A stretch of DNA of 64,000 nt from Halobaculum limi (GTDB lineage Archaea; Halobacteriota; Halobacteria; Halobacteriales; Haloferacaceae), in the NCBI RefSeq assembly GCF_029490015.1, contig NZ_CP120468.1, forward strand, positions 2,728,001 through 2,792,000, read 5' to 3'. A program made the translations under genes and the position numbers. Positions 34,803 to 37,923 of this stretch are shown here, one piece after another. Under the pieces are notes generated by a model. That model made no database searches and had not been told where the DNA came from. It saw only the letters and a list, made by a program, of their open reading frames with translations. Every line of letters starts with the position of its first letter. Positions within the stretch are counted from its first letter, which is position 1.

Positions 34803-35696
34803 TCAGTCGGCGTCGGCGCGGTCCGATTCGTCGGGCACGACCGGGCCCCCCTCGCGCATCGACAGTGGGGGGCGGTCCGCTGCGTGGCGCGCGTCGTTGA
34901 GCGCGTCACACACCGTTCCTTGGCCACCCATGTTGACACCGGCGAGACGAGTTCGCTGTCTGACCAGTTCGAACTCGCCGGCGTCGATCGGTTCTCCCTC
35001 GGGCGTGCGGCACAGTTCTGGGTGGTCGTCATCGACGACTCCCGTCACGGCCGCTTTCTCGCGGTAGCGGACCAGCGGGTCTGCGTCGACGCGCACCGCG
35101 AGCGACCCATCTGGAACCCACACTGTGAGGCGGTCGTCGTCATCGTCGTCGCCGGTGGCGCCGAGAGGATCGCGGTCTGGCCACGCCACGTCGTCGTCGG
35201 TGAGCGCGACGATCTGATCGCCGGAGAGGCCGGCGTCGAGGAGCGCCCCGGTGGCGTCGTGTTGACGGGCGATCCGTGCCTTCCGGTCGAGTTCCGCCCG
35301 GACCGGCACCACGTCGCCGTCGGCGTCGGGGAACGCCTCGCCGAAGGGGAGGCCCTCGTTGATCCCGCGGTTGATCTCGCGTTCGTGCATGTGCTCGCGG
35401 AGGTCGATCTCTGCGCGGTCGACGCCCGGGAGCGACTCCACTTGGTCGCGAGCGTCGGCGGCCATCATCCAGGCGAACGCCGGGGAACACCACGCCGTCG
35501 GGAGCGTGAACGCGACGAACACCTCGCCGTCGTCGATCCTGATCTCCTCGACGTAGTCGAGTTCGACGATGGACGTGTCCAGTTCGGGGTCGGTGACGCG
35601 GTCGAGTCGCTCGCGGACCGCGTCGACGGTCGTCGACGCGGACGTCGACTCAGCCCGGGCGGACGACTCCCCTGAAGGCTGCGGGTCCGACGCCAT
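34803..35696 (-). CDS. DUF59/MIP18-domain protein of the diiron monooxygenase accessory type
   Basis: The 297-residue protein has a DUF59 domain with DPELDTSIVELDYV (residues 37-50) and a conserved Cys70 in LPTAWCSPAFAWMMAADA. It continues with a helical part that contains HEREINRGINEG, and a C-terminal segment with GMGG-like glycine turns. DUF59 proteins take part in iron-sulfur or diiron assembly. The LPTxxCxPxFAxxMxADAxD stretch matches, from memory, the protein encoded in actinobacterial propane monooxygenase operons next to an amidohydrolase, as here. Its ATG overlaps the amidohydrolase stop (TGATG), so the two are coupled. Confidence 0.8.
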   Translation of the reverse strand: MASDPQPSGESSARAESTSASTTVDAVRERLDRVTDPELDTSIVELDYVEEIRIDDGEVFVAFTLPTAWCSPAFAWMMAADARDQVESLPGVDRAEIDLREHMHEREINRGINEGLPFGEAFPDADGDVVPVRAELDRKARIARQHDATGALLDAGLSGDQIVALTDDDVAWPDRDPLGATGDDDDDDRLTVWVPDGSLAVRVDADPLVRYREKAAVTGVVDDDHPELCRTPEGEPIDAGEFELVRQRTRLAGVNMGGQGTVCDALNDARHAADRPPLSMREGGPVVPDESDRADAD

Positions 35697-36766
35697 CAGT
35701 CGTCCGCCGGCGTGGCACTCGTGCCGCCGGCGTAGTGGTCGCCGAGACCGAAGTCCTCGGTGACGCCGTCCGTTCGGAACTGCTCTTTCTTCGCCTCGAT
35801 GTCGATGTCGTACAGTTCCGCGGCGTTCTCGCCGAGGATCTTCCGTTTGGTGTCGAGCCCGAACTCGACGCCGTACTCGTCTTTCTGCTCGTCGGTGAGT
35901 TCGGCGTCCATAAACGTCTCCACGAGCCAGTCGGGGTTCCACAGCGCGTAGTCCGACCCGAACAGCAGGCGGTCCTCACCGAGCCAGAACAGGAGTTCAC
36001 CCATAATCTCGCCGAACTTCCGCGGGCGGTGGACCGCCAGCGGCGCGGCGACCGCGAGGCCGCCGTAGACGTTGGGTTCCTGCGCGGCGATCCAGCAGAA
36101 GTCGTCGAGTCGCGGCAGGCCGACGTGTTCGACGACGAAGTTCAGTTCGGGGAACGAGGTGGCCGCGTCGTCGACGTCGGCGACGTCGAAGGCGTCCCGG
36201 TTGAGCGGGCGGATGGTCGGCCCCTTGTGCGGGTGGATGTTCTCGATGCCGAGTTCCGAACACTTCTCCAAGAACTCGAACGACTCCTGTGAGTCGAGGC
36301 GCCACCCCTTCGAGTCGCCGTTCCACTCGGCGGTGTACAGTTTCACGCCCTGGATGTCGTACTCCTCCTTCTGTCGTTCGAGTTCCTCCATCCCCGCCTC
36401 GCCGTCACGCGGGTCGAACCGTCCGTTGAGGACGAACCGCTCGGGGTACCGCTGTGCGAGTTCGGCGTTGTCCTCGATGGTGTTGAAGCCGTCCGCGTAG
36501 AAGTCGCGGAGGTACGTCGGCTGGAAGATGCCCATGTCGACCGCGGCGTTGCCGAACAGGTCGTCAGCCATCCGATCGGCCCCGTACTTGCGGTACTCGT
36601 CGAGCCCCCACTGTTTGTCCTCGGGCGTGAACCCGGTGTGGTAGTCGTAGAAGCACTGGATGAACTGCTCACCACCCTCGTGTGTGATGTTCTCCTCGCT
36701 CGCGTCCCACAGGTGCAGGTGCGAGTCGATGACGAATATCTCCTCTCCCTCGTCTGTCACGTACAT
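35696..36766 (-). CDS. Amidohydrolase-family protein of the propane-monooxygenase-associated type
   Basis: The 356-residue protein is a TIM-barrel hydrolase with HLH (His16, His18) near the N terminus and the terminal metal-ligand Asp in LLFGSDYALW. Segments such as FQPTYLRDFY, GVKLYTAEWNGDSKGW and NFVVEHVGLPR are very like those I recall for the amidohydrolase of mycobacterial and rhodococcal propane (mim/prm) monooxygenase operons, a protein needed for the enzyme to become active. Its own reaction is unknown. It is the first gene of a two-gene unit with the DUF59 protein, divergent from an alcohol dehydrogenase, and its TATA element implies a leaderless mRNA. Confidence 0.85.
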   Translation of the reverse strand: MYVTDEGEEIFVIDSHLHLWDASEENITHEGGEQFIQCFYDYHTGFTPEDKQWGLDEYRKYGADRMADDLFGNAAVDMGIFQPTYLRDFYADGFNTIEDNAELAQRYPERFVLNGRFDPRDGEAGMEELERQKEEYDIQGVKLYTAEWNGDSKGWRLDSQESFEFLEKCSELGIENIHPHKGPTIRPLNRDAFDVADVDDAATSFPELNFVVEHVGLPRLDDFCWIAAQEPNVYGGLAVAAPLAVHRPRKFGEIMGELLFWLGEDRLLFGSDYALWNPDWLVETFMDAELTDEQKDEYGVEFGLDTKRKILGENAAELYDIDIEAKKEQFRTDGVTEDFGLGDHYAGGTSATPADD

Positions 36767-36768
36767 CT

Positions 36769-36783
36769 GTGATGTGTTACCAC
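36769..36783. promoter_or_regulatory. Candidate operator half-palindrome in the amidohydrolase promoter
   Basis: GTGAT-N5-ACCAC (imperfect 5-bp inverted repeat) lies between TATA and ATG of the amidohydrolase gene. The arm GTGGTAACA on the minus strand resembles GTGGTAGCA in the facing promoter, so one regulator may bind both. Confidence 0.4.
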
Positions 36784-36792
36784 GGCTGACAG

Positions 36793-36800
36793 ATAATAAA
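36793..36800 (-). promoter_or_regulatory. TATA box of the amidohydrolase-DUF59 unit
   Basis: TTTATTAT on the minus strand, about 27 bases upstream of ATG 36766. The surrounding divergent region is much richer in AT than the genome average. Confidence 0.7.
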
Positions 36801-36853
36801 CACCATAGTCGATTATGTGATACTTTGTATGTTCTTGTAACGATAGGAATTTT

Positions 36854-36859
36854 TATAAG
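36854..36859 (+). promoter_or_regulatory. TATA box of the alcohol dehydrogenase gene
   Basis: TATAAG within TTTTTATAAG, about 27 bases before ATG 36883. Confidence 0.75.
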
Positions 36860-36864
36860 TTCGG

Positions 36865-36883
36865 TGTGGTAGCAGTAACCACA
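36865..36883. promoter_or_regulatory. Palindromic operator between TATA and ATG of the alcohol dehydrogenase
   Basis: TGTGGT-N7-ACCACA is a perfect 6-bp inverted repeat that fills the space from just after the TATA box to the first base of the start codon. A repressor bound here would block initiation. Confidence 0.55.
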
Positions 36884-37923
36884 TGCGAGCAGCCAGACTC
36901 CACTCGTACACCGACGATATGGCGAACGCGCTCACCATCGACGACGTCGACCGGCCGACCGTCGAGGCGTCCGACGACGTCATCGTCGAGGTCGAGGGCG
37001 CGGGATGGTGCCAGACGGACAACCACATTATCGAGGGAATGTGGACCGACTACGTCCCGCAGGAACTCCCGCTCACACTCGGTCACGAGAACGCCGGCAC
37101 CGTCGTCGAAGTCGGATCGGAGGTACAGACCGTCGGTGTGGGCGATAGCGTCATCTGCCATCCCGTGATGACGTGTGGCACCTGCCGGCCGTGTCGACAG
37201 GGCGAGGACATGTACTGCGAGAACGTCCGCTTCCCGGGCCTCACGCACGACGGCGGCTTCGCGGAGTTCCTCCACACGAACGAGCGAGCGGTCATCCCCC
37301 TCCCTAGCGATGTGGACACGACCGACATCGCGCCCCACGCCGACGCCGGCATCACCGCCTACCACGCGACCAAGAAGGCCGTCCGGGAACTGAACCCCGG
37401 CGACACCGCGGTGGTCATCGGCGTCGGCGGTCTCGGCCACATCGGCCTCCAGTGTCTCGACGCGATGAGCGCCGCCGACATCGTCGCCCTCGACCTGAAG
37501 GAGTCGGCCCGCCACCTCGCGATGGATCTGGGCGCCCACCACACCGTCGACCCCGGAACCGAGGACGTCGCGAGCGTCATCGCGGACCTCACCGACGACG
37601 TGGGCGCACAGCAAGTCCTTGACTTCGTCGGCGCCGACCAGACGACAGCGCTCGCGCCCGACATCGTCGCCGCTGGTGGCGACCACCACGTCATCGGCTA
37701 CGGCGGGCACGTCCACCAACCGTCGCAGTCGCTCGTCGACGGCGAGTTCAGTTACAAGGGTACGCTCGTCGGGCGCTACACAGAACTGCAGGAACTCGTC
37801 GCTCTCGTCGACCGCGGCGAGGTCGAACTACGGACGAGTCGGTACGACCTCGCAGACATCAACACGGTCGCCGAGCGCCTCGAACACGGTGAAATCGAGG
37901 GGCGTGCGGTCATCACGCCGTAG
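36883..37923 (+). CDS. adh: Zinc-dependent alcohol dehydrogenase
   Basis: The 346-residue medium-chain dehydrogenase has Cys43 in AGWCQTDNH and GHENAG for the catalytic zinc, the four-Cys structural zinc lobe CGTCRPCRQGEDMYC, and VIGVGGLGHIGLQ for NAD binding. It oxidises alcohols to aldehydes or ketones; in bacterial monooxygenase operons an enzyme of this kind handles the alcohol made from the alkane. Its gene is divergent from the amidohydrolase and shares a promoter region with similar operator-like sites. Substrate is unknown. Leaderless start at ATG 36883. Confidence 0.88.
   Translation: MRAARLHSYTDDMANALTIDDVDRPTVEASDDVIVEVEGAGWCQTDNHIIEGMWTDYVPQELPLTLGHENAGTVVEVGSEVQTVGVGDSVICHPVMTCGTCRPCRQGEDMYCENVRFPGLTHDGGFAEFLHTNERAVIPLPSDVDTTDIAPHADAGITAYHATKKAVRELNPGDTAVVIGVGGLGHIGLQCLDAMSAADIVALDLKESARHLAMDLGAHHTVDPGTEDVASVIADLTDDVGAQQVLDFVGADQTTALAPDIVAAGGDHHVIGYGGHVHQPSQSLVDGEFSYKGTLVGRYTELQELVALVDRGEVELRTSRYDLADINTVAERLEHGEIEGRAVITP

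Follow-up and report, generated by a model that had tools for sequence, protein, structure and literature searches.

An amidohydrolase gene and a gene for a DUF59 protein form an obligate pair in the haloarchaeon Halobaculum limi and in many other haloarchaea. Both are homologous to genes of bacterial soluble diiron monooxygenase (SDIMO) operons, yet no haloarchaeal genome in which we found the pair encodes an SDIMO. The pair is widely conserved and under selection. In H. limi it lies next to an alcohol dehydrogenase (ADH) gene in the 64,000-nucleotide stretch analyzed here (contig NZ_CP120468.1, positions 2,728,001 to 2,792,000), referred to below as the window. With a probability that we put slightly above even, the pair is a stand-alone two-gene metalloenzyme module, in which a PF04909 enzyme and its DUF59 maturation partner would act with the zinc ADH on a small substrate. 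All three genes are present and intact in the window:

34803..35696, minus strand: DUF59 (PF01883) protein, 297 aa (Pfam PF01883, E=9.7e-17)
35696..36766, minus strand: PF04909 amidohydrolase, 356 aa (Pfam PF04909, E=2.1e-50)
36767..36882, no strand: divergent intergenic region (sequence reading)
36883..37923, plus strand: zinc-dependent medium-chain ADH, divergent neighbor (PF08240/PF00107)

The amidohydrolase is 47-60% identical to proteins from bacterial mim/prm-type SDIMO operons, and the DUF59 protein is 26-34% identical to its counterparts there. Seven ADHs from SDIMO-operon clusters and from a Thermomicrobium trio were compared with that of the window, and six of them showed 42-50% identity to it. 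The initial annotation had pointed to signature stretches shared with mim/prm operons. Indeed, FQPTYLRDFY corresponds to VQSTYLKDFY in the SDIMO-operon homologues, and the second stretch, LPTAWCSPAFAWMM, corresponds to LPTYWCSPNFAYLM. When the amidohydrolase was compared with plasmids by tblastn, identity reached 52-60% over about 90% of the length, with E values down to 1e-124, a similarity well beyond chance or a common fold. Many of the plasmid homologues (Aminobacter, Paracoccus, Bradyrhizobium, Caballeronia, Ponticoccus, Gemmobacter) are located directly behind SDIMO genes. These six operons run SDIMO alpha, reductase, beta, coupling protein, then amidohydrolase, DUF59 and GroEL, with an ADH between the coupling-protein gene and the amidohydrolase in Ponticoccus and Gemmobacter. 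An SDIMO alpha gene also lies nearby in Rhodococcus, in Rhizobium CB3060 and in an Eremiobacterota metagenome-assembled genome (MAG). According to the literature, Gordonia TY-5 and M. smegmatis share the layout of the plasmid operons; Mycobacterium sp. AT1 has its amidohydrolase, unknown-function and ADH genes at another chromosomal place than the monooxygenase (PMC6849523). The haloarchaeal proteins thus resemble the SDIMO-operon pair both in full-length similarity and in adjacency. Given the homologues in SDIMO operons and the identity of the ADHs, mim/prm kinship was rightly recognized.

No match to the SDIMO hydroxylase family PF02332 was found in the window or in the whole host genome (99.7% complete), while the same search gave matches in SDIMO-bearing bacterial records. 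The observation that no monooxygenase is encoded nearby was therefore correct, and the proposal that one is encoded elsewhere in the genome finds no support. The hydroxylase, reductase and coupling protein that stand beside the accessory genes in a group V SDIMO operon are all missing from the locus, and no SDIMO alpha gene was detected within up to 10 kb at 100 archaeal loci. Among 391 haloarchaeal genomes, only four (G064, G216, G095 and G348) had a PF02332 match, and none of these belonged to the 123 that carry the pair; this non-overlap is not significant alone (p=0.31). Haloarchaeal SDIMOs were rejected as the partner of the pair. The four are of the phenol/toluene type, with PF02332 alpha and beta subunits accompanied by Rieske ferredoxin, extradiol-dioxygenase-like and IclR-like genes.

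Of the 391 haloarchaeal genomes, 123 contained the amidohydrolase orthologue; the genomes with the long-form DUF59 protein were these 123 and no others. At E<=1e-20 the amidohydrolase search returned 152 genomes, 29 of which (counted by hand) matched via distant paralogues only. The DUF59 gene was directly downstream of the amidohydrolase in all 76 archaeal loci examined, and the pair was intact in most of the 123 genomes, from many families. An ADH of at least about 70% identity was found within 10 kb in 70 of the 76 loci. The ADH also occurs in 16 of 30 checked haloarchaea without the pair; it is a frequent but separable neighbor. A genome of the same genus (G293; C4:40000-55000) provides a natural "empty site": the ADH and E1-alpha genes are retained, exactly the pair is absent, and a phosphoesterase-like gene, recognized by reading the sequence, stands in its place. 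The initial annotation had considered both of its readings of the locus new for haloarchaea. This may hold for the concept, but the genes themselves are common in this group and have been annotated before in generic terms.

The same pairing was observed for divergent haloarchaeal amidohydrolase paralogues that are 28-35% identical. A DUF59 open reading frame (ORF) was located immediately downstream in 20 of 20 such loci, by profile match in 17 and by eye on the translation in the other three, and no SDIMO was present. The tested members of these loci were assigned to PF04909 and PF01883 by Pfam. Two annotated examples lie near AMP-ligase, thiolase, short-chain dehydrogenase/reductase (SDR) or aldehyde dehydrogenase genes.

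The three genes of the locus showed low dN/dS ratios against relatives (amidohydrolase, 0.085-0.13; DUF59, 0.21-0.27; ADH, 0.08-0.21). All are under strong purifying selection, and are therefore in use.

A maximum-likelihood tree was calculated for 62 amidohydrolases, 39 of them haloarchaeal. These 39 fall into a single clade (100/100), which is not nested within a separate 13-member bacterial clade (97/87) containing most SDIMO-linked amidohydrolases. The deepest branching order is not resolved and several branches are long; the tree does not show the direction of transfer. The amidohydrolase is rare in two bacterial samples: a set of 240 genomes yielded three positives and a set of 148 yielded one, each count including the genome on which the set was centered. 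No SDIMO was found in two MAGs, nor on the Peribacillus and Rhizobium N324 plasmids, for which the search covered the plasmids only.

In an alignment of archaeal members with bacterial SDIMO-operon homologues, residues D14, H16, H180, H214 and D272 of the amidohydrolase are invariant and H18 is nearly so. The HxH, His, His, Asp pattern of mononuclear PF04909 enzymes is therefore present (H16, H18, H180, H214, D272). By their motif and by analogy with ACMSD, rather than by structural superposition, these residues would correspond to the canonical site of such enzymes. The AlphaFold model (pLDDT 87) has PF04909-type enzymes as its nearest folds (3irs, Z 26; decarboxylases, Z ~22), and the structural matches listed are presumably mostly mononuclear enzymes. 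The paralogue family (loci L151-L170, L144 and L146), which has a short DUF59 gene behind, is without counterparts of H16 and D272 and retains D14, H18, H181, H215, E222/E223 and H281 (own numbering).

The DUF59 protein combines an N-terminal SufT/CIAO2-like domain with a C-terminal extension of about 200 residues. A DPELD motif, C70 and C263 are invariant. Its scores are far below the NCBIfam cut-offs for PaaD (36.5 bits vs 180) and SufT (25.9 vs 202.6). In its AlphaFold model (pLDDT 87), only the N-terminal part matched DUF59/CIAO2B structures; the C-terminal part, searched within the full model, gave no confident fold match and weak tyrosine-recombinase-like matches. In an Eremiobacterota MAG (L109, 11090-11391 and downstream), a stop codon ends the DUF59 domain and the remainder lies in a separate frame; from this split, the extension may be a separable part. 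For the ADH, the closest solved relatives are the alcohol dehydrogenase 1h2b and Rhodococcus ADH-A.

At its longest (34803-35942), the DUF59 open frame begins inside the amidohydrolase gene. Because of a TGATG overlap with the amidohydrolase stop, the ATG at 35696 is the likely start. The divergent intergenic region contains a TATA-like element, rich in AT. The palindrome GTGGTAGCAGTAACCAC (36866-36882), also located there, abuts the ADH start codon and is a possible operator. A genome search with this palindrome recovered its own site only, and no regulon. The other neighbors of the trio in the window are genes for E1-alpha, an FAD amine oxidase-like protein, a threonine synthase-like PLP enzyme and a phosphoesterase.

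How might the module work? To judge by its conserved metal-binding residues and its fold, the amidohydrolase probably has catalytic activity of the PF04909 type that depends on metal. The DUF59 protein would probably load or mature its metal site, as SufT/CIAO2/PaaD-type proteins aid other metalloproteins. The ADH probably belongs to the same small-molecule pathway, for example in alcohol oxidation or ketone reduction, since the neighborhood is conserved in archaea and bacteria and the enzyme is kin to secondary-alcohol dehydrogenases. In many bacteria the same module is part of propane/acetone-type SDIMO operons, and in haloarchaea it would work without an SDIMO. As roughly one in three haloarchaea has the pair and lacks an SDIMO, the pair most likely constitutes its own enzyme system. 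Proteome data point the same way: in the actinobacterial strain DSM 45062 grown on 2-hydroxyisobutyrate, the Mim amidohydrolase-like protein made up 3.2% of the proteome, MimC 3.8% and MimG 4.0% (PMC7176365). The amidohydrolase-like protein is thus about as abundant as the MimC subunit, a higher level than one would predict for a trace assembly factor. No description of such a module was found in the literature searched.

Several results weigh against a stand-alone module. The bacterial SDIMO link is real and strong: an SDIMO was adjacent in 10 of the bacterial loci examined, and three more genomes or plasmids (the Thermomicrobium plasmid, G474 and G589) have one at another place. A role in maturation would likewise be compatible with this link. 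Haloarchaeal neighbors other than the ADH differ by lineage; as a functional clue they yielded two main chromosomal contexts, lineage-bound, with no pathway and no fixed partner. Moreover, phmmer found no relative of the amidohydrolase among PDB sequences, and a profile search found distant ones only.

The initial annotation had suggested recruitment of the accessory genes for another metal enzyme. This is possible but not the best reading, because the pair is present in 123 of 391 genomes without an SDIMO, is never separated, and the paralogues behave likewise. Stated more fully, the pair would be a maturation or metal-delivery factor for another metal enzyme (an oxygenase from a different family) whose gene lies at some other place in haloarchaeal genomes; we regard this as rather unlikely. 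It would be consistent with the known assistance of DUF59 proteins to metalloproteins and with the weak match to haloarchaeal PaaD. It would also suit the position of close homologues in SDIMO operons beside a GroEL-like chaperonin, which is reported to be essential for SDIMO expression (PMC6849523, citing Furuya 2013). In the literature searched, only the GroEL-like protein is described in this way, and we found no experiment in support of the claim that monooxygenase activity needs the amidohydrolase or the DUF59 protein; literature on haloarchaeal propane monooxygenase, the amidohydrolase/DUF59 pair and MimG yielded no test of either protein. Against a maturation role, the neighborhoods show no fixed partner, the palindrome, unique in the genome, points to no regulon, the amidohydrolase retains its metal-binding residues, and the divergent paralogues have a DUF59 gene and no SDIMO. 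The diiron proteins PaaA/PaaC were rejected as a client, since they do not co-occur with the pair: they were found in 69 of 123 pair-bearing and 139 of 259 other genomes (382 in total, counts slightly approximate; p=0.66).

No SDIMO would be needed if the amidohydrolase were itself an O2-activating dinuclear monooxygenase of the ARO type (AibH2, PtmU3, SfbO), but this is improbable. The structural matches listed, which we take to be mostly mononuclear, argue against it; no ARO chain was among them, which we do not count as evidence of absence. An ADH next door would suit a hydroxylase, and PF04909 includes such oxygenases, AibH2-like ones being reported in haloarchaea (PMC10401708, PMC10811679). 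However, AROs bind two metals via D-x-H, H, E and D-x-x-H (PMC7782822), and by comparison with this published pattern, rather than with an ARO alignment, the second-site His is apparently absent, D272+3 being L275. About 90% of AibH2-like genes adjoin a Rieske-type gene (PMC10401708), whereas no plausible ORF of the 76 loci contained a Rieske-type motif, the two matches both lying in implausible ORFs. An ARO oxygenase was therefore disfavored. Still less probable is a partner hydroxylase of SDIMO type too divergent for PF02332, because this profile picks up the alpha as well as the beta subunits of genuine haloarchaeal SDIMOs, with E values of ~1e-45 to 1e-58, and its sensitivity is therefore good. 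Finally, homology to SDIMO operon genes in a genome with no SDIMO could indicate a functionless remnant of a lost operon. This we find hardly credible: it is largely refuted by purifying selection (dN/dS 0.08-0.27), the pair is intact in most of the 123 genomes across many families, and the haloarchaeal clade (100/100) falls outside the supported, mostly SDIMO-linked bacterial clade.

Within the literature searched, no established role was found for the SDIMO-operon amidohydrolase and DUF59 protein. Their pairing and survival in about one third of haloarchaea without an SDIMO provide a clean natural test of the role of both genes. Since the pair persists without an SDIMO, its function needs none, and the question moves from aid to a monooxygenase to the reaction of a DUF59-assisted amidohydrolase. 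The results also suggest that a DUF59 protein can serve one enzyme exclusively. More tentatively, PF04909 enzymes with a dedicated DUF59 protein might represent a general, unrecognized two-component metalloenzyme system, present in at least two deep haloarchaeal branches. Its presence in bacterial propane/acetone monooxygenase operons would then be just one of several uses; the DUF59 protein would be a metal-loading factor specific to the amidohydrolase, and the reaction would be a new one.

Among known systems, the SDIMO operons of group V (named prm in Gordonia TY-5 and mim in Mycobacterium, and including those of plasmids, Rhodococcus among them) encode both proteins in identical order, with a related ADH. 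The haloarchaeal locus differs from them in that genes for a hydroxylase, a reductase, a coupling protein and a GroEL-like protein are all absent, in its divergent ADH, and in proteins that form their own clade. The DUF59-amidohydrolase-ADH cluster on a Thermomicrobium roseum plasmid is likewise a trio without an adjoining SDIMO, but all its genes are on one strand, an IclR regulator lies upstream, and an SDIMO is found ~370 kb off on the same plasmid. AROs share the PF04909 family and the metalloenzyme nature with the amidohydrolase, in which, in contrast, no second-site His was found at D+3 and which has, instead of a Rieske partner, a DUF59 partner. Mononuclear PF04909 enzymes (ACMSD, dihydroxybenzoate decarboxylase) and the uncharacterized 3irs/BB4693 share its fold (VIA Z 19-26) and the HxH, His, His, Asp residues at only 14-20% identity; to our knowledge, none of these is paired with a DUF59 protein. 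SufT/PaaD/CIAO2-type proteins have in common with the DUF59 protein of this locus an N-terminal domain that carries DPEL and a conserved Cys, whereas the C-terminal extension and the obligate linkage to an amidohydrolase set the latter apart.

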